Shown in pieces: positions 8,804-25,275 of a DNA stretch of 41,527 nucleotides (positions are counted from its first letter, which is position 1; each line of letters opens with the position of its first letter). The notes beneath the pieces are model-generated. The model saw nothing but the letters and a program-made list of their open reading frames with translations, did no database searches and was not told the origin of the DNA. This stretch comes from Acidimicrobiia bacterium (GTDB lineage: Bacteria; Actinomycetota; Acidimicrobiia; Acidimicrobiales; Aldehydirespiratoraceae): the NCBI GenBank assembly GCA_024421085.1, contig JAHQYN010000018.1, positions 1-41,527 on the forward strand. The letters are read 5' to 3'. The position numbers and the translations under genes were made by a program.

Positions 8804-8850
8804 TGCGCGGGCTCAGCGTTGACGGGCCCAGTATTGACGGGCTCGGCTGA
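8803..8850 (+). CDS. Micro-ORF 4 of the thrC-thrB relay (15 aa)
   Basis: Encodes MRGLSVDGPSIDGLG. It lacks the VR codons present in the other blocks and ends in TGA whose last base is the A of the thrB ATG. Confidence 0.4.
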   Translation: MRGLSVDGPSIDGLG

Positions 8851-9668
8851 TGCGCGTTCGGGTGCCGGGTTCCTCGGCCAATCTGGGTCCGGGGTTCGAT
8901 GCGCTGGCGCTTGCCGTCGACCGCTACTACGAACTCACCGACGAGCCCCTAGAGGGGTTCGAGCCGGTCGGCACCGATGATCTCGTCTGGACCGCGCTGA
9001 AACGCACCGGTGCCTCCTTCGGGCGGTTGTGGTCGCGCAGCGAGCTGCCGATAGCGCGGGGGATGGGCTCGAGCGCGGCCGCCTGTGTCGGGGCCGCGTA
9101 CCTCGGCTTCCGCAACGACGGACTGGACCACACCGCCGCGCGCCATGCCGCGTTCACGGTCGCCGATGAGATCGAGGGCCATCCCGACAACGCCGCGGCT
9201 TCGGCATACGGCGGGTTGAACCTTGCGGTCGGCGGCCGGATCCATACTGATGTTCCGTGCTTGGCGCCCGGTCAGTTCTACATGTGGATTCCGGCGAGCG
9301 TGTCGTTCACAGCCTCAGCCCGCGCGGTTCTTCCCGAGGCGCTTGACATTGTTGATGTGGTAACCCAGGCCGCTTCTTGCGCGGCGGTCTATGCCGGGCT
9401 GTTGAACGGGTCGTGGGATCTCATCGCGGGCGCCAACGGAGACCAGATACATGAGACGGCCCGGTTGAGCCTGCTGCCCGACTCAGCGGAAGTGGTGAGC
9501 AGGCTTCGGGCCGCCGGGCATGCGGCGTGGCTGAGCGGGTCCGGCCCCAGCGTCGGCGCGCTCATCGAGTCGGGCGGCGAGCAGATGCGCCCCGAACCCA
9601 CCGGCGACTGGGTGGCCCTCGGAGTCGACACCACCGGCTGCGTTGAGGTGAAGGCCTTGGGCGGATGA
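8850..9668 (+). CDS. thrB: Homoserine kinase
   Basis: A GHMP-family kinase that phosphorylates homoserine to O-phosphohomoserine, the substrate of ThrC. The N-terminus MRVRVPGSSANLGPGFDALALAV is the conserved GHMP motif 1 of ThrB. The ATP loop is RGMGSSAAACVGAAYLG (about residues 68-84), and the C-terminal motif 3 is AAWLSGSGPSVGALI. At 272 aa it is slightly short but complete. There is no Shine-Dalgarno site of its own. The start codon is entered through the TGATG overlap from micro-ORF 4, so expression probably depends on re-initiating ribosomes. The stop overlaps the drmD start. Confidence 0.96.
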   Translation: MRVRVPGSSANLGPGFDALALAVDRYYELTDEPLEGFEPVGTDDLVWTALKRTGASFGRLWSRSELPIARGMGSSAAACVGAAYLGFRNDGLDHTAARHAAFTVADEIEGHPDNAAASAYGGLNLAVGGRIHTDVPCLAPGQFYMWIPASVSFTASARAVLPEALDIVDVVTQAASCAAVYAGLLNGSWDLIAGANGDQIHETARLSLLPDSAEVVSRLRAAGHAAWLSGSGPSVGALIESGGEQMRPEPTGDWVALGVDTTGCVEVKALGG

Positions 9669-12600
9669 CAACTGCCACCTCCGCGCTGCTGCCTGAGCGC
9701 CTACCTGGGGTCGGGGAGTTGGTGCAAGTGCGGTCGCGGCGCTGGATCGCGGAGGGGGTGACTGAGTCGGGCGTGCCCGGCGAGTCGGCAAGCGTCCTGC
9801 TGGCTTGTGTGGACGACGACAACCAAGGCCAAGCACTGGAGGTGCTATGGGATTGCGAGCCGGATCGTTGGATTCTCAGTGACGAAGGATGGGCCGACTT
9901 GGCATCCAAGGGGCTCGATTCGCCGCGTTTGTTCGCGGCCTACCTCCACACACTTCGATGGAACTGCACCACGGCCACCGACTCACGGCTGTTCCAGGCA
10001 CCGTTTCGAGCGGGCATCACCATCGACGCATACCAGATGGAGCCTCTGCGCAAAGCGCTGACGCTGCCTCGAGTGAATCTGCTCATCGCCGACGACACCG
10101 GTCTAGGCAAGACCATCGAGGCCGGCCTGATCGCCCGCGAACTGCTGTTACGCCGCAAGGCCAGGTCCATAGTGGTGGCTGCGCCGCCGTCGATGCTGGA
10201 GCAGTGGCGGAGCGAGATGGAGGAGCGCTTCGGCCTCGTGTTCGAGATCCTCGACCGCGCCTACGTGTCGCGGATGCGCCGTGAGCGGGGCTTCGGTGTC
10301 AATCCTTGGCGCACCCACAGCCGGTTCCTGGTGTCTCACAACCTGCTGATCGACCCGGCGTACACCGACCCGATGCGGGAGTGGCTCGGTGAGGCGCGGG
10401 CCGGGAGCCTGCTGATCCTCGACGAGGCGCACCATGCGGCGCCGTCATCGGGGGGCCGCTATGGAATCGAGACCAAGATCACGAGGGCCGTGCGCGATTT
10501 GGCCCACCGCTTTGGGCATCGGCTGTTCCTGTCAGCCACCCCCCACAACGGCCACTCCAACAGCTTCTCCACGCTGCTGGAGTTGCTCGACCCGTACCGG
10601 TTCACCCGCGGCGTGAAGGTGCGGCCCAAGACCGACCTCGAGCCGGTGATGGTGCGGCGCATCAAGGAGGATCTTCGCGAGATCCAGGGCGGCTTCCCCA
10701 AACGCAACGTGGTGCCGGTCGAGATCGCCGGTCTGCCCGACGACGCCCCGGAACTGGTCCTGTCGAGGTTGCTCGACGAATACCGCACAGCGCGCGAGCA
10801 GCGCTACGCGTCGGAGCCGACCCGGGTGCGCTTCGCCTCCGGGCTGATGGTCGTCGGTCTGCAACAGCGTCTGCTGTCCTCGGTCGAGGCCTTCGCTCGC
10901 AGCCTCAAGGTCCACCGCGAGACCGTTCAGCGCCACTGGGACAAAGCCCGTGGATCCACCCGTGATCAGCCTTCCGGTTCGCACATCCCGGACGTGAGAG
11001 ACACCGCCGACGATCGGACACCCGGCTTCCTTCGACCTCCGGATGCCGACGACGAGCGAAGCGACTGGACGGCGGACGAGGTCGAGGCCGAAGAGGAGGC
11101 CCAGATCTCGTTGATCGACGCCGCGTCCGACCCGGTCGCCGCCCCCGAGGCGGTGGCCTGGGCCAACGAGCAGCGGCTCCTCGACCAGATGCAGAAGATC
11201 GCGGAGGACACGCGGCACATTCCCGACGCCAAGACGCTCTGGCTCATCGACTGGATCCGCGAGAACCAGGGCCCGGCCCTGCCCGCCCTCGGCCCCCCGC
11301 CCGAGTGGACGGATCGGCGAGTCCTGATCTTCACCGAGAACCGTGAGGGCACTAAGCGCTACCTCAAGTCGATCCTCGAGCAGGCCATCGAGAGCAGCCA
11401 TCGGGCTGACGAGCGCATCGAGATCATCGACGGGCTCACCGGCCGGGCCCGCCGCCGCGAAGTGCAGCGCCGCTTCAACGCCGATCCCGCCAGTGAGCCA
11501 CTGCGCATCCTGATCGCCACCGACGCCGCCCGGGAGGGCCTGAACCTGCAGGCCCACTGCTCGGACCTGTTCCATTTCGATCTGCCTTGGAATCCGGGCC
11601 GCATCGAGCAGCGCAACGGTCGGATTGACCGCAAGCTCCAGCCTGCAGCCGTCGTCAACTGCCACTACTTCGTGCTGCCCCAGCGGGTCGAGGACCGGGT
11701 GCTGGAGGTGCTGGTCACCAAGACCGAGACGATCAAACGCGAGCTGGGCAGCCTCTCGCAGGTCATCGACGATTCAGTGGAGCGGAGGATGCTGTCAGGA
11801 GGAATCCGCCACCGTGACGCCGAAGCGCTCCGTGGCGAGATCGAGGCAGAGTCGCTGGAGGACAGTCGGAGACGAACCACCGAGGAGGAGCTTGAACAGG
11901 CACGTGACCGTTCCCAGGAGTTGAGAGGCCAAATCGAGAAGTGCCAGGACCTTCTGGATAGATCCCAGCGCTGGGCGGGGTTCTCGCCTGGACCATTCCG
12001 CGACGCCATCGACTGCTCGCTGAGCCTTCTGGGCGCTCCGCCGCTGGTGGAAGAAACCGACGATGAGGGCCGCAGGGTATGGACGTTCCCGCCGCTGGAG
12101 CAGCGCGCCGCCACCGATCCGAGTTGGACATCGACGCTCGACTCGCTCAGGGCGCCGCGCAAGCTTGACCAGAAGGTGCCCGAGTGGCGCCGCGATGCGC
12201 CGATTCGCCCCGTCGTGTTCGAGGACGCGGGACGCCTCGACGAAGAGACGGTTCACCTGCATTTGGAGCAGCGGGTGGCGCAACGTCTGCTTTCCCGCTT
12301 CAGGGCGCAGGGCTTCATCCATCACGACCTGTCGCGGGCCTGTCTCGCCCAGTCGAGGGACGCGATCCCCCGGGTGATCCTGCTGGGGCGCCTGTCTCTC
12401 TACGGCCGGGGTGCCGAGCGGCTCCACGAGGAGATCGTGCCGGTGGCGGCCCGCTGGCGCGACCCAGCGAGCCGCGACGGGCCGTTGCGGGCCTACGCCC
12501 GGGACGCGGAGACACGGACGATGGATTTGCTGGAGGTTTCGCTCAACGGCCGCGGGCGTGCCCCCAGCGAGGTCATCCAGCGCCGCCTGATGGATGCAGC

Positions 12601-12994
12601 TGTGAGAGACATCAAGGACCTGCGTCCCCAGCTCGAGCCGAGAGCCGCCGAACACGCCGAAACCGCGAAGCGCAGCCTCGCCCAGCGCGGCGAGCGAGAG
12701 GAACGTGCGCTGCGCGACACTCTTGAGAGGCACCGCGGCCAGGTGGAGGCCGAACTCGCAAGCCATCAGCGCGACTACACGCAGCTCCTGTTGGACTTCC
12801 AGGGCCAGGATGCCCATCAGCTTCAAGAGGACACGCGCCAACTTGATGCCAACATGCGGCACTGGCGCACGCGGCTTGAGCAGTTCGAGCAGGACTTGGA
12901 GCGTGAGCCAGCCCGTGTGCGCGAGTTCTACGAGGTGAGGGTGCAGCGAGTCGAGCCCGTTGGTCTGGTTTACCTGTGGCCGGAGACGAACTGA
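9665..12994 (+). CDS. drmD: DISARM class 1 SNF2-like helicase DrmD
   Basis: A 1109-aa superfamily 2 ATPase of the SNF2/RapA type. Walker A is ADDTGLGKTIEAGLIARELL (near residue 140), the DEAH box LILDEAHHAAP (near 252), and motif III LFLSATPHNGHSNSF. A charged insert separates this from the second RecA lobe, with LIFTENREGTKRYL, ATDAAREGLNLQAHC and motif VI RIEQRNGRIDR (near 645). A long coiled, Glu/Arg-rich C-terminal region follows. In DISARM the helicase DrmD defines class 1 together with drmMI. The ATG overlaps the thrB stop (ATGA), so the gene is coupled to the threonine operon. Its own stop overlaps the drmMI start. Confidence 0.9.
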   Translation: MTTATSALLPERLPGVGELVQVRSRRWIAEGVTESGVPGESASVLLACVDDDNQGQALEVLWDCEPDRWILSDEGWADLASKGLDSPRLFAAYLHTLRWNCTTATDSRLFQAPFRAGITIDAYQMEPLRKALTLPRVNLLIADDTGLGKTIEAGLIARELLLRRKARSIVVAAPPSMLEQWRSEMEERFGLVFEILDRAYVSRMRRERGFGVNPWRTHSRFLVSHNLLIDPAYTDPMREWLGEARAGSLLILDEAHHAAPSSGGRYGIETKITRAVRDLAHRFGHRLFLSATPHNGHSNSFSTLLELLDPYRFTRGVKVRPKTDLEPVMVRRIKEDLREIQGGFPKRNVVPVEIAGLPDDAPELVLSRLLDEYRTAREQRYASEPTRVRFASGLMVVGLQQRLLSSVEAFARSLKVHRETVQRHWDKARGSTRDQPSGSHIPDVRDTADDRTPGFLRPPDADDERSDWTADEVEAEEEAQISLIDAASDPVAAPEAVAWANEQRLLDQMQKIAEDTRHIPDAKTLWLIDWIRENQGPALPALGPPPEWTDRRVLIFTENREGTKRYLKSILEQAIESSHRADERIEIIDGLTGRARRREVQRRFNADPASEPLRILIATDAAREGLNLQAHCSDLFHFDLPWNPGRIEQRNGRIDRKLQPAAVVNCHYFVLPQRVEDRVLEVLVTKTETIKRELGSLSQVIDDSVERRMLSGGIRHRDAEALRGEIEAESLEDSRRRTTEEELEQARDRSQELRGQIEKCQDLLDRSQRWAGFSPGPFRDAIDCSLSLLGAPPLVEETDDEGRRVWTFPPLEQRAATDPSWTSTLDSLRAPRKLDQKVPEWRRDAPIRPVVFEDAGRLDEETVHLHLEQRVAQRLLSRFRAQGFIHHDLSRACLAQSRDAIPRVILLGRLSLYGRGAERLHEEIVPVAARWRDPASRDGPLRAYARDAETRTMDLLEVSLNGRGRAPSEVIQRRLMDAAVRDIKDLRPQLEPRAAEHAETAKRSLAQRGEREERALRDTLERHRGQVEAELASHQRDYTQLLLDFQGQDAHQLQEDTRQLDANMRHWRTRLEQFEQDLEREPARVREFYEVRVQRVEPVGLVYLWPETN

Positions 12995-15900
12995 TGGCGA
13001 GACTCGACCCGCATGTCGCGGCCCACCTGGAGTGGATCGGGTTCGTCCGACCCACTGGCCTCGTTGTGTCGGCACCCGCACTGGTGCGTGCTGGTGTGAT
13101 CCTGAACCGCCACGACACCGAGGGCCAGCGACTGCTGCGCGCTTGGGACGAGGACACCGATGCTAGAACTCCGACAGATCGGGCATCGGGACTGGCAGAA
13201 TTCCGAGGGTTCGCGGAGACGGTGCTGCGCTGGAGCTTCTCGCCAAAGGGATATGGGGGCACTCCGGATTCTCCCGTCCCGCCCGATCTGGAAATCGGAC
13301 TGCCCGAGTCCGGTGGCGTTTTCCGCCCCGACTTCGCAGTCCGGACTGAACCGCTGCGAGTCCCGCCGAACGAACGCGGAGAACGAACGTCGACTTGGCA
13401 GCTGCTGGTCAGCGTCATTGATCCCGCTGAGGGCTTCGACCACAGCACTGCAGGCGGCTTGGAACTATCGGCTCACGGGCGCATGGAGAGGCTGCTGCGC
13501 CACACCGGTGTCCCGGCCGGGCTGATCTTCAACGGCACCGCGCTTCGACTCGTTTCGGCACCAACCGGCGAGAACTCGGGTTGGTTGGACTTCCATTTGG
13601 CCGACATGCTCCAGGCCGCCGGCCGTCCGATCTGCTCGGCTATGCGGGAACTGCTCGGACAGACCCGCCTGTTGTCCGTACCGGCTGATAAACGGCTCGC
13701 GGCGCTGCTGCACGACAGCCGCAAGTTCCAAAACGAGGTCAGCGAGCGCCTAGCCCAACAGGTGCTCCACGCCCTCTATGAGTTGCTGCGCGGCTTCCAG
13801 GCCGCGCACGACACGTCCGGAGGCGAGCTGCTCGGCCGCCAGCTCATCGACGATTCCGACAAGATCTACCAGGGTCTGCTCACCGTGGTTCTACGCCTCG
13901 TGTTCCTGCTGTATGCAGAGGAGCGTGACATGTTGCCCCAGGACGAGATCTTCTTGGGATCGTATGCGGTATCGGGCCTCTACGAGCGCTTGCGAGAGGA
14001 CGCGGCCATCTACCCCGACACGATGGACCAGCGCTACGGTGCCTATGCACAGTTGCTCGCGCTGTGGCGCATGGTCCACGACGGTGCCCGCGGTCCACAG
14101 ATGAGCCTGTCACCCCGGCACGGTGACCTGTTCCACCCCGACCGCTACCCGTTCTTGGAGGGCCGCGGCGGGGAACACGTTCGCCAGGTCGGCGAGCGCG
14201 TCGATCCGCCCCTCGTGTCCGACGGCGCGATTCACCGTGTGCTGGAGAAGCTGATCGTGCTCGACGCCGAGCGGATCTCCTACCGGGCGCTGGACGTGGA
14301 GCACATCGGCTCCGTCTACGAGACGATGATGGGCTTCCGCCTGGAAACCGCGACCGGGCGCAGCATCGCCGTCAAGGCCGCCAAGAAGCACGGCGCCCCT
14401 GCCACCGTCAACATCGAGGAACTACTGGCCGAACGCCCGCCCAAGAGGGCCAAGTGGCTCCGAGACCGCACCGACCGCAAGCTCACCGCAAAGGTCAGCA
14501 GAGCCGTGCAGCAGGTCGACCCTCAGGTCGGGGGAACTATCGACGATCTGCACGCCGCCCTCGACTCTGTGATCGACAAGAACGCCACGCCCGATCTCGT
14601 GCCGACGGGAGCGATGGTGCTGCAACCCAGTGAGGAGCGGCGACGCTCAGGCTCCCACTACACGCCCCGCGAACTCACCGAGCCGATCGTGCGCATCGCG
14701 TTGGAGCCCATCTTCAACCGCCTTCGCGAGAAAGCCCAAGGGCCGCCCCAGCCCGAGCAGATCCTCGACCTGAAGGTGTGCGACCCAGCTATGGGTTCCG
14801 GCGCGTTCCTAGTCGAATCCTGCCGCCAACTCGCCGACGCCCTCATTGAATCCTGGCGAGTCAACAACATCGTGCCGGTGATCCCACCCGACGAGAACGA
14901 GGTGATCTTCGCTCGCCGACTTGTTGCCCAGCGTTGCCTCTACGGCGTCGACCGCAATCCCAAGGCTGTCGACCTAGCCAAGCTGTCGCTCTGGCTAACA
15001 ACGCTCGCCAAGGAGCACCCTCTTACGTTCCTCGACCACGCCCTGCGCCACGGCGACTCACTGGTGGGACTGTCGATTCCCCAGATCCAAGCCTTTCACT
15101 GGAAGGGCGACGCCCCTATCTTCGAGGAAGGCTTTGAGGCGCTTCAGGCCCGCGAACACTTGGCTAGAGCTGCCGAACTGCGCCAGCTCATCCGCGAGGC
15201 CGACGACACCGTGGCCGACTGGGAGCTAAGAGATCTCTGGGACGAGGCCCAGACAGAGACTAGGGAGGTACGGCGATTGGGCGACCTCGTGCTGCTCGCC
15301 TTCTTCAAGGGAACTAGGCCGAAGGAGCGTGAACTTCGCCGCAGACAGCTCGCAGAATCTGTCCTCCTCGGTGACACGGAACTGCCGCAGGCCCGGCTAG
15401 CAGAGCTCCGCAACGCCGAACAGCCACTCGTCCCTTTCCACTGGGAGATCGAGTTCCCCGAGGTCTTCGACAGAGACAACCCAGGCTTCGACTCCATAGT
15501 CGGCAACCCGCCATTCCTGGGAGGAAGGAATCTCTCCGCGGCCCAAGGAGAGGTCTACTCAAAGTGGCTACTTGCGACGCATGAGCAGTCGAACGGCGGA
15601 GCAGACCTTGTAGCTCACTTCTTTAGGAGGGCATTCGATCTAATTCGAAGTAGCGGCACCTTCGGACTGATAGCTACGAACACGATCGCTCAAGGGGACA
15701 CACGAACTAGCGGCCTGCGTTGGATATGTCAGAACGATGGGGAAGTGTATTGTGCCCAACGAAGAGTCAAATGGCCAGGCGTCGCAGCAGTAATCATCAG
15801 TATTGTCCATGTCAGCAAGGGATCAGTGATTGCCGCCAAGTGTCTAGACAACACATTCGTTGAGAAGATCACTGCCTTTCTCTTCTATCGAGGTGGACAT

Positions 15901-17031
15901 CAAGACCCCAAGCGACTTGCCAATAACTCCGCGAAGAGTTTCCAAGGAAGCATCGTGCTCGGTATGGGCTTCACATTCGACGACCGTGATAGACGTGGAG
16001 TTGCCTCTTCTCTTGAGGAAATGAACCATTTGATTGATGAGAATCCTAACAATCGTGAAGTCTTGTATCCATATATCGGTGGGGAAGAACTTAATGGTAG
16101 TCCTACTCATGATCATCACAGGCACATAATAAACTTTGGAGAGAACGATCAAGCACATTGTATGAACCGATGGCCTCAGCCCTTTCATATCGCAGAAAGG
16201 CGTGTCAAGCCTGAGAGGATGCTCAAAGACGCAGACAAATACCCTAGAATGGTCAACGAATGGTGGAAGTACTGGAATGCACGGCCGGAACTGTACGCCG
16301 CGACGTCTGACTTAAGGCGCGTTCTAGCGAATTCTCGAGTTAGTCATCGCTTGCAGTACGCATTCTTACCCTCAAACATGGTGTATGCGGATTCACTAAT
16401 CGTATATCCGTTTGAGACTTACGCGGCATTCTGTATGCTACAGTCTCGGCTACATGAGGCCTGGGCACTTTTTTTTGGATCATCAATGAAGGATGACCTT
16501 CGTTATACGCCTTCAGACTGCTTCGAGACCTTCCCGTTCCCCCGAGATTGGAAGACACAAAGCGATTTGGAAATGTCTGGCAAGGAGTACTACAACTTCC
16601 GAGCTGATCTGATGGTACGGAACGATGAAGGCATGACCAAAACCTACAATCGCTTTCATGATCCGTACGAGAACAATGTCGATATCGAGAGGCTTCGCAC
16701 CCTGCACACTGCCATGGATCGTGCCGTCCTTGCGGCATACGGATGGTCCGATGTCCCGGTTGACTGCGAGTTCCTTCTCGACTATGAGATCGAGGAGGAG
16801 ACATGGGGCAACAAGAAGAAGCCCTACCGTTACCGTTGGCCCAACGAGGTCCGCGACGCAGTGCTCGCCCGCCTCTTGGAACTCAACGGCGAGCTAGCCG
16901 TCGAGGAAGCTCAAGCAGGCATCACCAAACGCACGAGGACTATAGGCGGCCGACGGTCAGATGCTCGGTCTGTTCAACTCTCGGCCGAGGAAGGTTATGT
17001 CTCTGCTACGTTGTGGGATACAGCCTTCTAG
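12994..17031 (+). CDS. drmMI: DISARM class 1 N6-adenine DNA methyltransferase DrmMI
   Basis: About 1345 aa. The SAM-binding motif is LKVCDPAMGSGAFLVESCRQ (near residue 595) and the catalytic N6-adenine motif is IVGNPPFLGG (near 837), in the order of gamma-type methylases such as PglX and type IIG enzymes. I use the ATG at 12994, which overlaps the drmD stop as TGATG, rather than the GTG at 12976. It would mark host DNA so that the DISARM machinery spares it. From about 15600 to 16750 (residues 870-1250, the expected target-recognition part) the DNA is clearly poorer in G+C than either side, suggesting exchange of the specificity domain. Confidence 0.9.
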   Translation: MARLDPHVAAHLEWIGFVRPTGLVVSAPALVRAGVILNRHDTEGQRLLRAWDEDTDARTPTDRASGLAEFRGFAETVLRWSFSPKGYGGTPDSPVPPDLEIGLPESGGVFRPDFAVRTEPLRVPPNERGERTSTWQLLVSVIDPAEGFDHSTAGGLELSAHGRMERLLRHTGVPAGLIFNGTALRLVSAPTGENSGWLDFHLADMLQAAGRPICSAMRELLGQTRLLSVPADKRLAALLHDSRKFQNEVSERLAQQVLHALYELLRGFQAAHDTSGGELLGRQLIDDSDKIYQGLLTVVLRLVFLLYAEERDMLPQDEIFLGSYAVSGLYERLREDAAIYPDTMDQRYGAYAQLLALWRMVHDGARGPQMSLSPRHGDLFHPDRYPFLEGRGGEHVRQVGERVDPPLVSDGAIHRVLEKLIVLDAERISYRALDVEHIGSVYETMMGFRLETATGRSIAVKAAKKHGAPATVNIEELLAERPPKRAKWLRDRTDRKLTAKVSRAVQQVDPQVGGTIDDLHAALDSVIDKNATPDLVPTGAMVLQPSEERRRSGSHYTPRELTEPIVRIALEPIFNRLREKAQGPPQPEQILDLKVCDPAMGSGAFLVESCRQLADALIESWRVNNIVPVIPPDENEVIFARRLVAQRCLYGVDRNPKAVDLAKLSLWLTTLAKEHPLTFLDHALRHGDSLVGLSIPQIQAFHWKGDAPIFEEGFEALQAREHLARAAELRQLIREADDTVADWELRDLWDEAQTETREVRRLGDLVLLAFFKGTRPKERELRRRQLAESVLLGDTELPQARLAELRNAEQPLVPFHWEIEFPEVFDRDNPGFDSIVGNPPFLGGRNLSAAQGEVYSKWLLATHEQSNGGADLVAHFFRRAFDLIRSSGTFGLIATNTIAQGDTRTSGLRWICQNDGEVYCAQRRVKWPGVAAVIISIVHVSKGSVIAAKCLDNTFVEKITAFLFYRGGHQDPKRLANNSAKSFQGSIVLGMGFTFDDRDRRGVASSLEEMNHLIDENPNNREVLYPYIGGEELNGSPTHDHHRHIINFGENDQAHCMNRWPQPFHIAERRVKPERMLKDADKYPRMVNEWWKYWNARPELYAATSDLRRVLANSRVSHRLQYAFLPSNMVYADSLIVYPFETYAAFCMLQSRLHEAWALFFGSSMKDDLRYTPSDCFETFPFPRDWKTQSDLEMSGKEYYNFRADLMVRNDEGMTKTYNRFHDPYENNVDIERLRTLHTAMDRAVLAAYGWSDVPVDCEFLLDYEIEEETWGNKKKPYRYRWPNEVRDAVLARLLELNGELAVEEAQAGITKRTRTIGGRRSDARSVQLSAEEGYVSATLWDTAF

Positions 17032-17087: not shown

Positions 17088-18179
17088 CTAGTAGATGCCA
17101 AACTGCCGGCCTCCCGACATGGTGAAGTGCCCTCCCACACGTTTGCTGCGTCGTCTCAAGTGTGCTCTATTCGCGGTTGGCACGACGATAAGTTCATAGA
17201 CCACGGCACCATCATGTGATGCTTTACTAAACACGAGAACCTGGTTGTCATAGGAAGGCGGGCCCGTTGATGATCCTGGGACAGGCACCGTAAGCACGTC
17301 CATCGAGTTGTTTGAGTATCTCAATGTTCTGTCCCAGGAGATGTGGCCCTTGTGTCTAATAGCCAATTCTCGCAAGTGGGTATCAGGAGGAACATTCTTG
17401 GCCTCAACGCCAAAGAAGACCCGGGTCATCGCGCGCATCATTATCTGGTTCCCCGGAAGTCCCTTCCCGCGGTTCCTGGTCACATTCCCAGCTTCAATCC
17501 AGAGATGTTGCGCTGATCGAAGTCTTAACAGATCTTCCGCCCGGAATCGAGTCCGAAGCTCAACCGCATTGGTTGCGTCGTCCGAGGTCGGTGTAGGTTG
17601 CCCAATAGAATCAGAGTGGGCTGACTGGTAGCGGTCCTCGATTTGTGAGTACCTAGTGGCATCTTGCCATAGGTGACGGAACCACTTGTTCGTGTCTCCG
17701 AGTGCTTTCCAGGCATGCCGTTCGGCGGACGTCTTGGCATCCCGAACTTCGATGACCGTGTCGAGTTCATGGCCTATGGATAGGCCGTTCCTTGAGAGAT
17801 TTGCTGAGCCAGAGACAAGGAGTCGGGCAGTCGGCCCCAGAAAAAGAAATCCCTTCGGATGAAACGGTATCTGTGGAGCACATCTGGGTGAATTCACGAT
17901 CTGGGCTCCGAATGGTATCCGAACCGATGATCGGGGCATCGAGTCGAGCGCGCCGAGTGCAGCTGGCTCTGACCGGCACCAGTCAAGAGCGACCAGCCAC
18001 TGTGCCTTGAGATGGGAGCCCCGACACGCTTCGGAGCGCTCAAGTAACTGAATCCCGCTCTGCGTCGCATACGCCACGGCGGCCCTCAGGTGTCTATAGT
18101 CCCGTTGTCGAGTCGCGTCGGCAAGCAATTCGATGACCGAGCCCTGGCCGGGTTGACCGATCGTCTCAGTCCTGAGCAT
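17088..18179 (-). CDS. Phospholipase-D-fold nuclease-like protein, inverted inside the DISARM island
   Basis: About 363 aa from the ATG at 18179, which has an AGGTGA Shine-Dalgarno sequence; the longer ORF-track start is unsupported. One HKD-type motif is visible, FHPKGFLFLG...LLVSGSANLSRNGLSIGHELD (around residues 105-130), as in PLD-family restriction nucleases such as the NgoFVII/BfiI group. The N-terminal part (RHLRAAVAYATQSGIQLLE) resembles the start of such domains. No second canonical HKD is seen, so a dimeric active site is likely if it is catalytic. The DNA is less GC-rich than the core drm genes. Orientation is opposite to the island and it converges on drmMI. Confidence 0.7.
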   Translation of the reverse strand: MLRTETIGQPGQGSVIELLADATRQRDYRHLRAAVAYATQSGIQLLERSEACRGSHLKAQWLVALDWCRSEPAALGALDSMPRSSVRIPFGAQIVNSPRCAPQIPFHPKGFLFLGPTARLLVSGSANLSRNGLSIGHELDTVIEVRDAKTSAERHAWKALGDTNKWFRHLWQDATRYSQIEDRYQSAHSDSIGQPTPTSDDATNAVELRTRFRAEDLLRLRSAQHLWIEAGNVTRNRGKGLPGNQIMMRAMTRVFFGVEAKNVPPDTHLRELAIRHKGHISWDRTLRYSNNSMDVLTVPVPGSSTGPPSYDNQVLVFSKASHDGAVVYELIVVPTANRAHLRRRSKRVGGHFTMSGGRQFGIY

Positions 18180-18181
18180 TG

Positions 18182-18451
18182 CTATTTCACCTTGTCTGCG
18201 AAGCAGCGATCTTGATGGCTCGCACCTAGATCCTCGGGAGCGCCCAGCAAGCATCCACGAATCCGCAAGCGAGGATGATGTCCCGACAATCCTGGCCTCG
18301 CTCCGCCTGCTGCCTCTCCACGAGAGCGGATCTCCGACTCAATAGCCCGGCCGCGCGGAGTATTGTGAGCGACCACGGCCCGCTCCATCGGCGCGCCACG
18401 TTCCTCGGCGAGTGGCGCGGTCACCTGCATGTCCGTTTCGCTCCTGCTCAT
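18182..18451 (-). CDS. Possible small hypothetical protein in the divergent gap (89 aa)
   Basis: An open frame MSRSETDMQVTAPLAEERG... ends with a TAG three bases before the PLD-like gene. A TAGGGT six bases before its ATG could act as a leaderless -10. The first half (to about GRAIESEIRSR) has ordinary GC3. The second half reads more naturally in another frame (VERQQAERGQDCRDIILACGF), so a frameshifted remnant is possible. I recognise no family. The rest of the 18180-18640 gap shows no other gene. Confidence 0.3.
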   Translation of the reverse strand: MSRSETDMQVTAPLAEERGAPMERAVVAHNTPRGRAIESEIRSRGEAAGGARPGLSGHHPRLRIRGCLLGAPEDLGASHQDRCFADKVK

Positions 18452-18626
18452 CGGCTGACCCTATCCATGCGAGCATCCCTCGCGCACATGCCCGGGCTGC
18501 GTCGCTGCCAGCAGAGCCGATCTGGAGGTCGCCTGCCGTCGAAAGACGGTGGCGGCTGAAGCGACACAGCCTGCTAGCGACAAGCGGTTGGACCGTCGAT
18601 CCATGGGGTGGAAACGAAGCCCGGCC

Positions 18627-18632
18627 TATCCT
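18627..18632 (+). promoter_or_regulatory. Candidate -10 element of the drmA transcription unit
   Basis: TATCCT lies seven bases before the ATG at 18640, with no ribosome site between, suggesting a leaderless transcript. No -35 box is found at the normal distance. If real, this promoter makes the 156-aa gene and drmA-drmB-drmC a unit separate from the thr-drmD-drmMI read-through. Confidence 0.4.
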
Positions 18633-18639
18633 GTCGGCC

Positions 18640-19110
18640 ATGACACACGAAGTAGGATACCTGCCGCGGCTGGCGAGCTGGCGAGAGTTCGTCGACTACA
18701 TGGAGGGCCATCCTGTGCCTAGCGCAGCCGATGTCGAGTATCCAGACACCGGACGCAAGCTGGTCAAGACCTACGTGCTGGAGACCGCCGGCAGCGACCG
18801 GCAGATGCCGGACCTAGCGAGCAGGTTCGCTGGCCGTGTGCGTCTGCAACGTCTCGACGACACGCTGAATCGCGTTGAGGATGCCGACCACAACGGAGAG
18901 GTAGCGGCAGCGACAGATGTTGTGTCCAATGCTCTGCAGAGTCTCGGCGGATTCCAAAGGCGGAGCAGAGATACGATCTCGTTGTCGCTCTCAAGCTACG
19001 AGGAGCAAGCGGAAGTTGTGAAGTTCCTGGAACAGGCTAATCCAGCCGACAAGATGACGAATCTGGAAGCAGCAGTCAACGAAGCACCAAGGCTCTTCGA
19101 TGCCTATTGA
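18640..19110 (+). CDS. Unrecognised 156-aa protein preceding drmA
   Basis: The start MTHEVGYLPRLASWREFVDYMEGHP is chosen at 18640 because the -10-like TATCCT sits just upstream and the longer ORF-track frame covers low-quality coding sequence. The product is soluble and acidic, with no signal peptide or membrane helix. It contains a probable helical C-terminal half (SLSSYEEQAEVVKFLEQANPADKMTNLEAAV). I do not recognise the family. Its place directly before drmA, in the same direction and with codon use like drmA, suggests an accessory DISARM component or regulator; that is inference only. Confidence 0.7.
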   Translation: MTHEVGYLPRLASWREFVDYMEGHPVPSAADVEYPDTGRKLVKTYVLETAGSDRQMPDLASRFAGRVRLQRLDDTLNRVEDADHNGEVAAATDVVSNALQSLGGFQRRSRDTISLSLSSYEEQAEVVKFLEQANPADKMTNLEAAVNEAPRLFDAY

Positions 19111-19220
19111 GTCAGCCCACATCACTCTCGGTGATCCCGAGAAAGTCGCCGCGATCGGTGTCGCCAGATGAGGCCATTATCCCAACGACTCTGCAGATGG
19201 CTGCGTAGCCTGACTTGCGA

Positions 19221-22200
19221 ATGAACGCTGAATCCCCGTCGCCGTCGACCGCCTTCACCGACTCCCCAGCGGTGCGCGTGTACCTCGTGGACGCGCTGAG
19301 GTTCGACCTGGTCGGGCCGAGGCACGGGCATGAGTTGGCCGAAGAGATGCTGCCGGGCTGGGTACGGCCGTCCAACTGGTATCTGACCGGGTTCTTGGTT
19401 CCTTCTGACACGCCCTTCGAGTTGCGGTCCGACACAGACGCGGACGACCCGCTCGATGAGACACCCGACAACGCGGGACTTGCAGAGGAGTCCTCGGAAG
19501 AGCGCTCAGCCGCCAAGCGTGGGTTCTTCCCGTCCTCGATCGGCCTGAGCTTCCTCGTGTCGAGCGAGTCGGATGATCTTGTGGTGACAGTCCGCTGGGG
19601 CGACTACGAGAGAGACGAGTACCAGGGTCCCGACGGCAAATCTGTCGAGGTGTGGCAGCGACACCCGCAGGAGCGCACTGTGGCCGTAGCGCTGTCGAAG
19701 CCGGTTGCTGACCATCCAGTGCCTGATTCGGGCGGGTTGCGGCTGCACGTCGTCTTGCGGGCCGTCGAGACGGAGCGGTTAGCGGGGCTGGCGGCGGGCA
19801 CCCGGTCGGTGTCGGTGTTCTTGATCAACGGCCGGAGATCTCAAGCCGGCAGTCCCGACGACCCGGACAGCGCCGATGACGCTGTGCGGGCCTATACCTT
19901 CCAGGCCGAAATCGAGGTGTCCGGTGACGTAGCCTTCGTGCCACGGCCTGATCCGCGCGGAGCGGTGGCCACCGACTGGGACGACCAGGTTGCCGACCTG
20001 CACTACTCCGACGTGCCCGCGTACGCCACGGGCCACGGAACCTCCGCGGACTGGGAAACGATTAACGGCGAGTGCCATGTGCTTCGCACGACATGGATCC
20101 CGAGCGCGACAGTGGCCAAGACCGAGACGGTGGCCGTGTCGGAGGTGGTACTCTCGATGGAGACGCTTGGTGTCCTCGCTGACGGGCAGGCAGCCCGATC
20201 CGCCCTTGAGCCGCTGGTGGAACATTACCGCGACTGGATCGAAACTCAGAGCACCGGGCTCGGCATCCTCGGCGACGATGCGCGCGAGACGGCTGAGGAG
20301 TTGTTGCGGCGAGCCGCACTCGCGGCGGACCGTATCGAGCGAGGGATTGGCATGCTGGCCTCTGATCCGGATGCCCTGGATGCCTTCAGAGTCGCCAACC
20401 GCGCCGTTGCTCGCGCTCTGCGCCGACGCGCTCTCCTGCCTGACAACGACCATGCTGACGGTGAGGGCCCGAACTGGCGCGCCTTTCAGCTCGCGTTCAT
20501 CCTGCTGAACGTCGGCGGGTTGATCGATTCTCGCGACCCTGAACGAGAGACTGTCGATCTGTTGTTCTTCCCGACAGGCGGCGGCAAGACGGAGGCCTAC
20601 CTGGGCCTGGCCGCGTTCACGATCGTTCTGCGCCGGTTACGGCATCCGGGCAACAGCGGACTAGAGGGCGCGGGAGTCGCGGTGATCATGCGCTACACCC
20701 TGCGCCTGTTAACGCTCGATCAGCTAGCTCGGGCCGCTGGGCTAGTGTGCGCTCTGGAGCTCGAGCGGGCAAACGACCCTGGCCGTTACGGCACCTGGCC
20801 GGTGGAGATCGGATTGTGGGTGGGCAAAGCGGCGACGCCCAATGTGATGGGCCGCAAGGGAGACAGTCGATCAGACACCGCCCGATCGAAGACCAGCCAG
20901 TTCAAGTCCAACCCTCACAGCAAGCCTTCCCCGATCCCGCTGGAGAGTTGCCCCTGGTGCGCGACGCGCTTTGAACGGTCGTCGTTCACGCTGCTGCCCG
21001 ACGACGATCAGCCCACGGAGTTGCGGATCGTGTGCGCGAACTTCGAATGCGACTTCAGCGGGGACCGGCCTCTGCCGATCCTGGCTGTGGATGAGCCCAT
21101 CTACCGCCGCTTGCCGTGCTTCCTGATCGCCACCGTGGACAAGTTCGCGTCGCTGCCTTTCACAGGGCAGACCGGCGCACTGCTAGGCGGCGCGGTGCGA
21201 CACGACACCACCGGTTTCTACGGCGCCGCCGAGCCGAGGAAGGGCAGGCCGCTGCAACGGCCACTGGCGGGCCCCGATCTTGTGATCCAGGACGAACTGC
21301 ATCTTATCTCAGGCCCGCTCGGAACGATGGTCGGACTGTACGAGACGATGATCGAGGCGCTCTGCACCCGAACCGCCGCTATCGCAAAGGAGGTTGCGAA
21401 CGACTCAAGCGAGGTTGCTACCCGCCCGGTGCGCCCCAAGATCGTGGCCTCGACCGCTACGGTGCACCAGGCCCAAGACCAGATCCAGGCCCTGTTCGCG
21501 CGGTCGAGCACACAAGTCTTCCCGCCGCCTGGGCCTGACCGTCGAGACTCGTTCTTCGCGCAAGTCATCCCAGCAGAGCAGATACCCGGCCGGCTTTATC
21601 TCGGTATCTCGTCGCCCGGCCGGAGCCCAAAGGTGCTGATGCGCCGGGTGTGGCTGGCGCTCATGGGCGCCGCCGAGCGCGCCTATCGCGACGCGGGCGG
21701 GCACCGCAACCACGGCAACCCGGCCGATCCGTACATGACTGTGCTGGGCTACTTCAACAGCCTGCGGGAACTGGGCGGCGCGCGCCGGATCCTCGAGGAA
21801 GAGGTGCAGCACACGGTAAGGACCTACGGCCTGCGGCGGCGCATCGGCCAGCCGAGAGGATCCTTCCAGGACCGGCGAACGATGTCCGATGTCGTCGAGT
21901 TGACTTCCCGCGTGTCCACCGACAAGGTGGCGCAGGCCCGGCACCGGCTGAGTCTCGGTGCCCACCAGAGCGGGCGCGTTGATAGCGCAATCGCCACCAA
22001 CATGATCTCGGTGGGCCTCGACATCACCAGGCTAGGGCTGATGGTGGTGGTCGGCCAGCCGAGAACCCACGCCGAGTACATACAGGCCACCAGCCGGGTC
22101 GGACGCGATGATCAGAGGCCAGGACTCGTGGTGACGTTGCTGAACGTCCACAAACCCCGCGACCGCTCCCACTACGAGCGGTTCCGGCATTATCACGAGA

Positions 22201-22706
22201 CCTTTTACCGGTCAGTGGAGGTGTCAAGCGTGACCCCGTTCTCGTCCCGGGCGCTTGACCGGGGCCTTGCGGGCGCGATGGTGGGTCTGGCCCGACATTC
22301 CGAGCCTTCGCTCACTCCCCCGGCTGGCGTGGCTTCACTGGAGACCGTACGGGCCATCATCGAACAGGTTCTGCTCGACGACTTCTTGGAGCGGGTCGAC
22401 AATCAGCCGATCGCGGATGCTGGGGAACGGGCCGAGCGGATTCACAGCGTGCGGTTGAGAATCGTCGATCTGCTCGACTCGTGGATCACCGTGGTCGACG
22501 ACTACCGGTCGACCAACACGGCCGTCAAGTACCAGCAGTACGAGCGGCTCCCGGGTCGACCCCTGCTTCGCGAGATGCTCGACACGGACTTCGAGTCTCC
22601 ACACCATCGCAAGTTCCGGGCAAATCGATCCCTGAGGGATGTGGAGCCCGAGGTGAACGTCTACATCGATCCCCTGATTGCATCCCGCCAGACCGGCGAG
22701 GGGTGA
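19221..22706 (+). CDS. drmA: DISARM helicase-domain protein DrmA
   Basis: The large SF2 helicase-like protein common to all DISARM systems, about 1161 aa from the ATG at 19221; the TTG at 19215 is less likely. Walker A is LLFFPTGGGKTEAYLGLAAF (near residue 447). A Cys-rich zinc-type insert follows (CPWCATRF...CANFECDF), then the DEAH-like box IQDELHLISGPLGTMVGLYE (near 690) and the motif III-like VASTATVHQAQDQI. C-terminal motifs are MISVGLDITRLGLMVVVGQPRTHAEYIQATSRVGRD (near 925-957). It is thought to work with DrmB as the DNA-engaging core. drmB starts 2 bases after its stop. Confidence 0.93.
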   Translation: MNAESPSPSTAFTDSPAVRVYLVDALRFDLVGPRHGHELAEEMLPGWVRPSNWYLTGFLVPSDTPFELRSDTDADDPLDETPDNAGLAEESSEERSAAKRGFFPSSIGLSFLVSSESDDLVVTVRWGDYERDEYQGPDGKSVEVWQRHPQERTVAVALSKPVADHPVPDSGGLRLHVVLRAVETERLAGLAAGTRSVSVFLINGRRSQAGSPDDPDSADDAVRAYTFQAEIEVSGDVAFVPRPDPRGAVATDWDDQVADLHYSDVPAYATGHGTSADWETINGECHVLRTTWIPSATVAKTETVAVSEVVLSMETLGVLADGQAARSALEPLVEHYRDWIETQSTGLGILGDDARETAEELLRRAALAADRIERGIGMLASDPDALDAFRVANRAVARALRRRALLPDNDHADGEGPNWRAFQLAFILLNVGGLIDSRDPERETVDLLFFPTGGGKTEAYLGLAAFTIVLRRLRHPGNSGLEGAGVAVIMRYTLRLLTLDQLARAAGLVCALELERANDPGRYGTWPVEIGLWVGKAATPNVMGRKGDSRSDTARSKTSQFKSNPHSKPSPIPLESCPWCATRFERSSFTLLPDDDQPTELRIVCANFECDFSGDRPLPILAVDEPIYRRLPCFLIATVDKFASLPFTGQTGALLGGAVRHDTTGFYGAAEPRKGRPLQRPLAGPDLVIQDELHLISGPLGTMVGLYETMIEALCTRTAAIAKEVANDSSEVATRPVRPKIVASTATVHQAQDQIQALFARSSTQVFPPPGPDRRDSFFAQVIPAEQIPGRLYLGISSPGRSPKVLMRRVWLALMGAAERAYRDAGGHRNHGNPADPYMTVLGYFNSLRELGGARRILEEEVQHTVRTYGLRRRIGQPRGSFQDRRTMSDVVELTSRVSTDKVAQARHRLSLGAHQSGRVDSAIATNMISVGLDITRLGLMVVVGQPRTHAEYIQATSRVGRDDQRPGLVVTLLNVHKPRDRSHYERFRHYHETFYRSVEVSSVTPFSSRALDRGLAGAMVGLARHSEPSLTPPAGVASLETVRAIIEQVLLDDFLERVDNQPIADAGERAERIHSVRLRIVDLLDSWITVVDDYRSTNTAVKYQQYERLPGRPLLREMLDTDFESPHHRKFRANRSLRDVEPEVNVYIDPLIASRQTGEG

Positions 22707-22708
22707 GC

Positions 22709-24487
22709 ATGGCCGCGGACGGGAAGTTACGCCAGAGCCAAGTGATCACCACCTACGGGCCGGGCGCGCTCATAGATCTGCCCCACGATGCCGCCATAGT
22801 CGGCGGGCTTGAGACCTGGCCGAACCCGAGCCAGCTCGACGAGATCGTCGATCCGCGCCTCTCCAGCCTCCTGCAGAACATCACGGAGGTTCCGGAACCT
22901 CGCTTGTACGCGCCGCCGCCGCAACCTGAGCAGCCGTGGCTGCCGAGGCGAGGCATCGGTGCATGGCGCTTCCCGGAGTGGTTCGTAGTGCAAGAGGCCG
23001 ACGACGGGGACGAACAGCAGCGCTCGCGCCGACTGGTTCATCGCAGATCACTGGAGAAGGGACGATTCGAGCGAAGGCCGGTGGTGCCCACACGGTTCGT
23101 GCGGGCCTGCCCGCGGGGCCATGTTGACGACCTGGACTGGAGAGGCTTCGTGCACGGCAGCGAGGCCTGCGTGCGCCAACTCTGGCTCGACGAACGAGGC
23201 ACGACCGGAGATTTGGCCGACCTAGTCGTGCGATGTGAATGCGGGAAGTCTCGACGTCTCTATGAGGCCACCGAGTTCAGCCAGCGGCCCCTGGGCACCT
23301 GCCGAGGCAAGCGCCCCTGGCTCGGTCTCGACACCGAAGAACAGTGCGACCAGCCCAGCCGACTGCTGATCCGCACAGCCACCAACGCCTACTTCTCCCA
23401 GGTTGTGAGTGTCCTGTCGTTGCCCGACCGAGGCTCGGCCGTCGAGCAGGCCGTAAGGGGGCTCTGGGACGATCTACAGATCGTGGACAGTCCCGCCGAC
23501 CTCGCCTTCATCAAGAAGAAGCCGCTCGTGACCGACACTCTCAGCCTGTTCTCCGACGACGAGGTAATGCGGACAGTCGAGCAGATCAAGCGAGGCGACC
23601 CACATCAGCGCTCAGTCAAGGAGGCAGAGCTCGAAGCCCTGCTCGCCGCGCCCGAAGGCTACGGCGAAGATGTGCCCGTTGACCCGGACTTCCACGCCCG
23701 GCGGCTGCCAGCGAGCGCTTGGCAGCGCGCCGGATCTCAGCTGAGTAGTGCCGTCGAGGGGGTCGTGCAGATCCACCGGCTACGCGAGGTTCAGGCCCTC
23801 ATCGGCTTCACCCGCTTCGAGGCCGCGGTGCGAGACATCCACGGCGAGTACGACACCGATGTGGAACGCGCCGACATCGCCGTCGAACCGCAGTGGTTCC
23901 CCGCAGTCGAGAACCGCGGCGAGGGCCTGTTCGTGCAACTGCGCTCGGCGGCAGTGTCCGCATGGCTGGATCGCCCGGTTGTGGCTGAGCGACTCGCCGT
24001 CCTGAATGGCCAGCACGACGCTTGGCAGAAGGACCGTCCCCGCCCCCGCGCCTTCGTCGGCGGGCCGTATGTGCTTCTGCACACGTTGGCGCACCTGTTG
24101 ATCCAGTCGATGGCCATGCGCTGCGGCTATCCGGCCAGCTCGATCCGCGAGCGCATCTACGTTGAGGACAGACAGTACGGGCTGATGCTGTACACCGGAA
24201 CTCCCGACGCCGAAGGCACGCTAGGAGGCCTGGTGGCGCAGGCCCGGCACTTCGAGGATCACCTCGCCCACGCGCTCGAGATGGGGCTGCTGTGCTCGAA
24301 CGACCCGATCTGCGCGCAGCACGTCGCTAGCGAAGACCACGACCAGCGTGGTCTGCAAGGCGCGGCGTGCCACGGCTGCGCCCTGATCGCCGAGCCCTCC
24401 TGCGAGATGCGCAACGACTACCTGGACCGAGCGCTGGTGGTGCCCGTTCTCGGTCTCCCCGACGCCGCGTTCTTCCCCCGGCCGTGA
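22709..24487 (+). CDS. drmB: DISARM DUF1998 protein DrmB
   Basis: About 592 aa, starting MAADGKLRQSQVITTYGPGALIDLP, a typical DrmB opening. The ATG has an AGGGG five bases upstream; the ORF-track start lies inside drmA and is wrong. The middle carries paired Cys motifs (RACPRGHVDDLDW, RCECGKSRRLYE). The DUF1998 core is LLHTLAHLLIQSMAMRCGYPASSIRERIYV (near residue 455), closing with Cys-rich GAACHGCALIAEPSCEMRNDYLDRALVVPVL. These probable zinc sites and the HTLAHLL helix are hallmarks of the family. The stop overlaps the drmC GTG. Confidence 0.93.
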   Translation: MAADGKLRQSQVITTYGPGALIDLPHDAAIVGGLETWPNPSQLDEIVDPRLSSLLQNITEVPEPRLYAPPPQPEQPWLPRRGIGAWRFPEWFVVQEADDGDEQQRSRRLVHRRSLEKGRFERRPVVPTRFVRACPRGHVDDLDWRGFVHGSEACVRQLWLDERGTTGDLADLVVRCECGKSRRLYEATEFSQRPLGTCRGKRPWLGLDTEEQCDQPSRLLIRTATNAYFSQVVSVLSLPDRGSAVEQAVRGLWDDLQIVDSPADLAFIKKKPLVTDTLSLFSDDEVMRTVEQIKRGDPHQRSVKEAELEALLAAPEGYGEDVPVDPDFHARRLPASAWQRAGSQLSSAVEGVVQIHRLREVQALIGFTRFEAAVRDIHGEYDTDVERADIAVEPQWFPAVENRGEGLFVQLRSAAVSAWLDRPVVAERLAVLNGQHDAWQKDRPRPRAFVGGPYVLLHTLAHLLIQSMAMRCGYPASSIRERIYVEDRQYGLMLYTGTPDAEGTLGGLVAQARHFEDHLAHALEMGLLCSNDPICAQHVASEDHDQRGLQGAACHGCALIAEPSCEMRNDYLDRALVVPVLGLPDAAFFPRP

Positions 24488-25275
24488 CCTTCCCGGGCGC
24501 GCATCTAGCAGCGCTGCCGCTTCATCGGCGGCGACGGCTCGTGGATGCCATCGAGACCGGGATGCTCCCGGACGCTCCCTCGGCGGCGGCCCTGTGGTCG
24601 GTGCTCGGACAGCGAGGCGAGGTAGACCATGTCCGCGACGACCTGATCGCTCTCAAGGGCGTCGGCGTCGTCGGTCCGGCGGTAGCGGTATGGCTGAGGG
24701 CTCTGGAACTCGCCCAGGCACGGGCGCCTGTGCCGGACCTGGTTTGGTCCGGTCCCGAGGTACCGGGGCTGCACGCACGTGACACTCGCCGGGTCTACGA
24801 AGAGCTGGTGCGAAGCGCGCGGGATTCGGTGTGGATGAGCACCTATGGCTACTTCGACGGCCCGCGCGCCTTCGCGGACCTGGCTGAGCGTATGGACGCC
24901 GTAGCCGGGCTGCGTGTCGTGTTGATGCTCAATATCCAGCGCGCCCGAGGCGACACCACAGCATCCGACCATCTCGTACGGCGCTTCGCCGACCGATTCT
25001 GGGGCACCGACTGGCCCGGCCAGTCCAAGCCGGTCGTCTACTACGATCCGCGCTCCCTCGATACCGACAGACCTACCGGTGTCTTACACGCCAAGGCACT
25101 CGTAGCGGACGACGCGGCCGTGTTCATAACATCAGGCAACCTCACCGAGGCAGCCCTTGACCGCAATATCGAACTGGGTCTCCTGATCCGAGACCCGACC
25201 CTGGCCAAGACGACAACCACCCACTTCCAAGCCTTGATCGACCGCGACCTGCTGCGCCCACTCCCAGAGGAATGA
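24484..25275 (+). CDS. drmC: DISARM phospholipase-D-domain protein DrmC
   Basis: About 263 aa. The start is the GTG at 24484 overlapping the drmB stop (GTGA); the longer ORF-track frame runs inside drmB. The HKD motif is VLHAKALVADDAAVFITSGNLTEAALDRNIELGLLI (near residue 200), the single motif usual for DrmC. The N-terminal half (LPLHRRRRLVDAIETGMLPD, DHVRDDLIALKGVGVVGP) is the helical family region. DrmC is a predicted nuclease-fold protein that is dispensable in some tested DISARM systems. It ends the island. Confidence 0.92.
   Translation: MTFPGAHLAALPLHRRRRLVDAIETGMLPDAPSAAALWSVLGQRGEVDHVRDDLIALKGVGVVGPAVAVWLRALELAQARAPVPDLVWSGPEVPGLHARDTRRVYEELVRSARDSVWMSTYGYFDGPRAFADLAERMDAVAGLRVVLMLNIQRARGDTTASDHLVRRFADRFWGTDWPGQSKPVVYYDPRSLDTDRPTGVLHAKALVADDAAVFITSGNLTEAALDRNIELGLLIRDPTLAKTTTTHFQALIDRDLLRPLPEE

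Follow-up and report, generated by a model that had tools for sequence, protein, structure and literature searches.

The closest described counterparts of the gene at the centre of this analysis are the PLD-superfamily restriction enzymes BfiI, NgoAVII and CglI, the last of which is a PLD plus B3-type nuclease that acts with a helicase-like ATPase (PMC5737866). DISARM encodes a PLD protein of its own, DrmC; according to a structural study of the system it is dispensable and frequently absent, and a different, unnamed PLD nuclease may take its place (PMC9142583). Accessory defence genes within such operons have been seen before: homologues of ShdA (Shield) sit within DISARM-like operons of Pseudomonas; unlike the gene described below, however, ShdA has an RmuC domain and comes from another host group, and the sections of the report that we draw on describe no variable slot (PMC10270631). 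BREX loci hold auxiliary and backup effectors, and share the principle of carrying diverse nucleases and toxins within a core defence operon, although the portion of the source used here describes no single swap site beside the methylase gene (PMC12839542). In the literature searched, which did not extend to the original DISARM paper, we found no published account of a slot between drmMI and drmA or of the PLD gene that we report from it.

The window, a 41,527-nucleotide stretch of contig JAHQYN010000018.1 from an Acidimicrobiia bacterium (GCA_024421085.1), carries a class 1 DISARM locus in the order drmD, drmMI, interior, drmA, drmB, drmC, flanked by threonine-biosynthesis genes (thrC and a thrB-like kinase) on one side and by rho on the other. 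All five genes gave strong profile matches in PADLOC or NCBIfam, so that drmD, drmMI, drmA and drmB, which define class 1 when found in one operon, are present together with the usual drmC. The first gene, drmD (9665–12994, plus strand), encodes an SNF2-like helicase of 1109 aa (PADLOC DrmD, 999 bits; NCBIfam DISARM_DrmD, 1015.6 bits against a cut-off of 610), and drmMI (12976–17031, plus strand) an MmeI/Eco57I-type N6 DNA methyltransferase of 1351 aa (PADLOC DrmMI, 1271 bits; Pfam Eco57I and MmeI_TRD). Beyond the interior lie drmA (19215–22706, plus strand), a YprA-type helicase gene (PADLOC DrmA, 885 bits) 92% identical to that of locus L005 and for which the ATG at 19221 is favoured as the start; drmB (22481–24487, plus strand; DUF1998/MZB; NCBIfam DrmB_fam, 536.7 bits); and drmC (24367–25275, plus strand), the usual DISARM PLD gene (NCBIfam DISARM_DrmC_I, 158.7 bits against a cut-off of 133). 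The thrB-like homoserine kinase gene (8850–9668) falls short of its family cut-off and shares 4 bp with the start of drmD. The genes drmMI and drmA are not adjacent, being separated by 2.2 kb. We consider it probable that the interval so formed is an accessory-cargo slot of this DISARM lineage and that in this genome it holds a methylation-partnered restriction nuclease, here called PLDx, and the scar of a deletion through two further genes, A and B.

As the original prediction held, a minus-strand PLD gene with an HKD-like motif lies between drmMI and drmA and is distinct from drmC. Its open reading frame of 388 codons (17088–18254, minus strand) is convergent with drmMI, from which it is separated by 56 bp, and no frame of at least 363 aa arose in 1000 shuffles of the region. 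Relatives align from about residue 27 of this frame, and the start is probably the ATG at 18179 (residue 26, giving 363 aa), because similarity begins there and an AAGGTG lies 8 nt upstream. A Pfam scan returned only a sub-threshold PLDc_2 match, and no PADLOC or NCBIfam model, those for DrmC included, was matched, although some members of the family do match RE_NgoFVII. PLDx and DrmC share the PLD superfamily and are both encoded by DISARM, and we considered whether PLDx might be the DrmC of this locus; this was rejected, since the DrmC models do not match it, its gene sits beside drmMI on the opposite strand rather than after drmB, and a separate drmC is present.

A profile built from six family members (A5) was used to search the PDB. 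The closest match to the N-terminal PLD region was 7clg (E 4e-12), an entry labelled as a putative helicase, which we take to be a SauUSI-type PLD-helicase; unlike such proteins, PLDx lacks a helicase part and is linked to a methylase. Matches to BfiI (2c1l, E 0.006) and NgoAVII (4rct, E 0.16) were weak. In the alignment to 2c1l the catalytic stretch is gapless and places an active-site motif, HxK...GSxN...E, at H132, K134, S150, N152 and E163 (codons at 17766–17861, minus strand). The spacing of H132, K134, N152 and E163 is that of H105, K107, N125 and E136 of BfiI, whose residue numbers were counted off the printed alignment, and the H, K, S, N and E of the motif are invariant in all eight family members. 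The C-terminal half gave no family or PDB match, and a single-sequence AlphaFold model of PLDx was unusable (pLDDT 35). PLDx is thus like BfiI, NgoAVII and CglI in its motif, in its profile matches to 2c1l and 4rct and in having a methyltransferase neighbour; it is unlike them in the weakness of the match, in that a B3-like domain was not detected in its C-terminal half, and in adjoining the large MmeI/Eco57I-type DrmMI of DISARM without a dedicated H-type helicase gene. On these comparisons we predict a BfiI/NgoAVII-like restriction-type nuclease.

Between the window and the related locus G006, the dN/dS of PLDx is 0.117, compared with 0.123 for drmMI and 0.118 for drmD, dS being near-saturated in these comparisons. 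As read from codon changes, PLDx is under purifying selection, like drmMI. One could argue from the opposite strand, from a GC3 of 0.58 against 0.70–0.83 in the drm genes, and from the deletion of neighbouring accessory genes that PLDx is an unrelated, decaying passenger whose position is accidental. Yet its constraint is as strong as that of the drm genes, its frame is full-length, its active-site residues are invariant and a methylase gene is its neighbour in every locus examined, and we regard a passenger as very improbable. No relatives of PLDx, gene A or gene B were found among viral contigs.

The neighbourhoods of the family bear most directly on the role of PLDx. In all eight full-length members examined, a small sample, a DNA methyltransferase gene adjoins it. 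Four of these belong to class 1 DISARM loci and lie next to drmMI, in three arrangements: antisense after the methylase gene, at the same place and in the same orientation, in the window and G006; colinear with drmMI and 37 bp downstream of it in Methylocystis sp. MJC1; and antisense between drmD and drmMI in G524. The remaining four (in Methylosinus, Methylobacterium, M. iwaonis and G597) adjoin methylase genes outside DISARM, with no drmA or drmB nearby; PLDx overlaps the methylase gene in Methylosinus, is convergent with it in M. iwaonis and is divergent from an Eco57I methylase gene in G597. A distant PLD gene upstream of drmD in G689 was left out of these counts. In G524 (L136:5923-14164) tandem drmMI-like genes, one with masked bases, stand next to the PLDx gene.

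Since a methylase is the partner common to all members, we prefer a restriction-modification role for PLDx to one within DISARM only. The alternative is that PLDx is a DISARM effector proper, recruited by activated DrmAB and backing up or replacing DrmC, with no methylation sensing of its own. Half of the family does lie inside class 1 loci, and the dispensability of DrmC, the alternative PLD nuclease and the 'mix-and-match' proposed in PMC9142583 would accommodate such an effector; but the other half adjoins methylases in loci where neither drmA nor drmB is near, and the window already has a drmC that scores above its family cut-off. We judge this alternative unlikely. In the preferred restriction-modification role, PLDx would cut DNA that does not bear the mark made by the adjacent DrmMI. 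Because its N-terminal half has a single HxK...N...E half-site, pairing of two subunits would create a single metal-independent active site, whilst the conserved C-terminal half may serve in DNA recognition or bind a partner. PLDx might thereby act as the restriction partner of the methylase or, if it cooperates with DISARM, as another nuclease available to the DrmAB complex.

Upstream of PLDx, positions 18180–18614 form a spacer which, in alignments to relatives, has no similarity to any collected locus. The corresponding interval of G006 holds a gene for a 614-aa DUF7380 protein with an RxxxxH motif (RNILVH) near its C-terminus, which can be read from its sequence as HEPN-like; no remains of this gene were found in the window spacer. 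An 89-aa frame here (18182–18451, minus strand), which had been put forward as a possible gene, appears to be spurious, as frames of at least 89 aa arise in dinucleotide shuffles of 18180–18640 with P=0.47 and no homologue occurs in any collected locus.

The frame of 156 codons directly before drmA (18640–19110, plus strand) is present and open, as had been noted, but it does not encode the intact protein of unknown family that had been supposed. An open frame alone is weak evidence, at least 156 aa being reached in 19% of shuffles. The protein had no match in Pfam, NCBIfam or PADLOC, and no homologue with its architecture was found, every match being split between two distinct genes. In the split tblastn hits, residues 1–88 align with the N-terminal end of gene A (407 aa) and the remainder with the C-terminal end of gene B (355 aa). 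The remnant of A (18640–18903, plus strand; the first 88 codons) shares 84% identity with the start of L005:269-1492, and that of B (18904–19110, plus strand; the last 68 codons and stop) matches the C-termini of L005:1489-2556 and L007:5886-6950. In L005, from an Acidimicrobiia MAG, and in G006, intact A and B lie directly upstream of drmA with their ends overlapping. The blastn blocks stop at 18903 and resume at 18904, with ∼1.8 kb absent from the window. As judged from these alignments, the 156-codon frame is an in-frame deletion chimera of A and B rather than an intact gene; a deletion would have removed most of the A and B (PD-(D/E)XK-like) module and left the fusion.

The junction is seen in one draft assembly of 241 contigs, and an assembly error is one alternative explanation for it. 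However, there is no obvious repeat shared by the two breakpoints, the reading frame is open across them and no second copy of gene B was found in the genome; an error thus seems to us very unlikely. The other possibility is that gene fusion gave birth to a functional small protein, a regulator or an antitoxin. The frame is indeed in register and open, the change in its two halves relative to L005 is mostly synonymous (dN/dS 0.14 and 0.28), and other DISARM loci also have small genes in front of drmA. Those genes belong to other families, though, and a recent deletion accounts for the low dN/dS; the fusion has lost the conserved C-terminal part of A as well as B's PD-(D/E)XK-like core, and its junction is absent in both relatives checked across it. 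A functional fusion protein is accordingly hard to credit. The original prediction of an accessory module comprising a second effector nuclease and a regulator therefore survives in outline for the PLD gene, through its methylase neighbour in all eight loci and its drm-like constraint, whereas the supposed regulator gives way to the scar of a gene pair.

Gene B has a PD...(D/E)xK...Q motif, in which K93 and Q106 are invariant in nine aligned proteins and the acidic positions are mostly kept. Profile searches of the PDB gave no match for B and nothing convincing for A, the single-sequence AlphaFold model of B was unusable (pLDDT 36), and the A+B members scanned had no match in Pfam, NCBIfam or PADLOC. 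Overlapping A+B-like pairs are found in Metabacillus, Lysinibacillus, Halobacterium and Methanocaldococcus plasmids; the plasmid search for gene B or the 614-aa protein returned no relatives. The pairs located (L005:269-2556, L112:5983-8195, L113:4974-7488, L114:5593-7588 and L115:5329-7444) are spread over Actinomycetota, Bacilli and Euryarchaeota. Outside DISARM the pair occurs in several genomes from the same class as the window, and it is possibly an unnamed two-gene defence module.

Elsewhere in the window's own genome, contig 204 (G000, L008:5608-6837) holds an intact, solitary gene A paralogue, ∼59% identical, which adjoins an AAA-type ATPase gene and has no gene B beside it. In three distant class 1 DISARM loci from the same genus as the window (L058:6240-8530, L060:15490-17289 and L061:3539-4863), A and B stand upstream of drmD rather than drmA, and gene B is fragmentary in two of the three. 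Decay of gene B as a typical feature of DISARM was considered from the fragments in G048 and G047 and set aside; these say little, because the matches to drmD, drmMI and drmA are also fragmentary in G048 and the G047 contig ends within drmD. A shared mobile element behind the cassettes was considered too; similarity to the gene A region of the aligned relatives reaches only ∼25 bp upstream of its ATG, and no repeat or integrase was noticed. The co-occurrence of these genes with DISARM is mixed, the PLDx relatives being divided equally between DISARM and stand-alone methylase loci, and about half of the A+B pairs being linked to DISARM. PLDx and the A+B pair are associated with methylases and defence loci rather than with DISARM alone.

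We also surveyed the interval itself in 26 class 1 loci in which drmMI and drmA are both present, a sample gathered opportunistically, so that the counts are not rates. The two genes are contiguous in 12 loci, the most frequent arrangement though not one that class 1 requires, and more than 500 bp apart in 14; at least one extra frame of at least 80 aa occupies the interval in 13, and one locus has 1.1 kb with no such frame. The contents differ widely: Trypsin_2, a PIWI-like protein and DUF4365 in G193, DUF6119/TIGR04141 in G457, AspBHI/Mrr in G490, Schlafen AlbA_2 in G689, HTH-ImmA genes in Methylocystis and G595, annotated XRE-family regulators in Acidibrevibacterium and Sinorhizobium, and MqsA and SecB-like genes in Thiodictyon. 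Three contigs of G412 and one of G440 end before drmA, and in these only the genes after drmMI are visible. The three drmD-drmMI loci of G412 (L064, L075 and L084) carry, in two cases, a small gene and a ThsB-type TIR gene and, in the third, a PIWI-like gene, and G440 (L134:8179-11952) has an antisense gene of 1257 aa with no Pfam match. The G412 assembly has about 8% contamination. Extra genes follow drmMI in all eight loci closest to the window (drmMI 60–75% identical, window included).

The drmMI–drmA interval is a variable slot for accessory cargo. Since related operons hold different defence genes there, DISARM seems to swap extra weapons in it. The suggestion that a later insertion had split the operon agrees with the contiguous junction in 12 of the 26 loci, with the other genes found there elsewhere and with the lower GC3 of PLDx. 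More tentatively, and as an idea we think could well prove wrong, the junction may be a dedicated swap site, at which alternative effectors are coupled to a common sensor made up of the methylation and helicase components.

The structural study of DISARM did not settle on a nuclease (PMC9142583), and PLDx is a concrete candidate for it, apparently intact and recurrent beside drmMI. What had looked like a small regulator is a scar, the parents of which form a two-gene module conserved in bacteria and archaea. The slot shows where accessory effectors of DISARM are placed; the candidates for a swap site would include a PLD restriction nuclease, a PIWI-like protein with DUF4365, a TIR pair, DUF6119, Mrr/AspBHI and Schlafen-AlbA proteins. 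If such a site is real, it would make DISARM a modular platform with interchangeable weapons.
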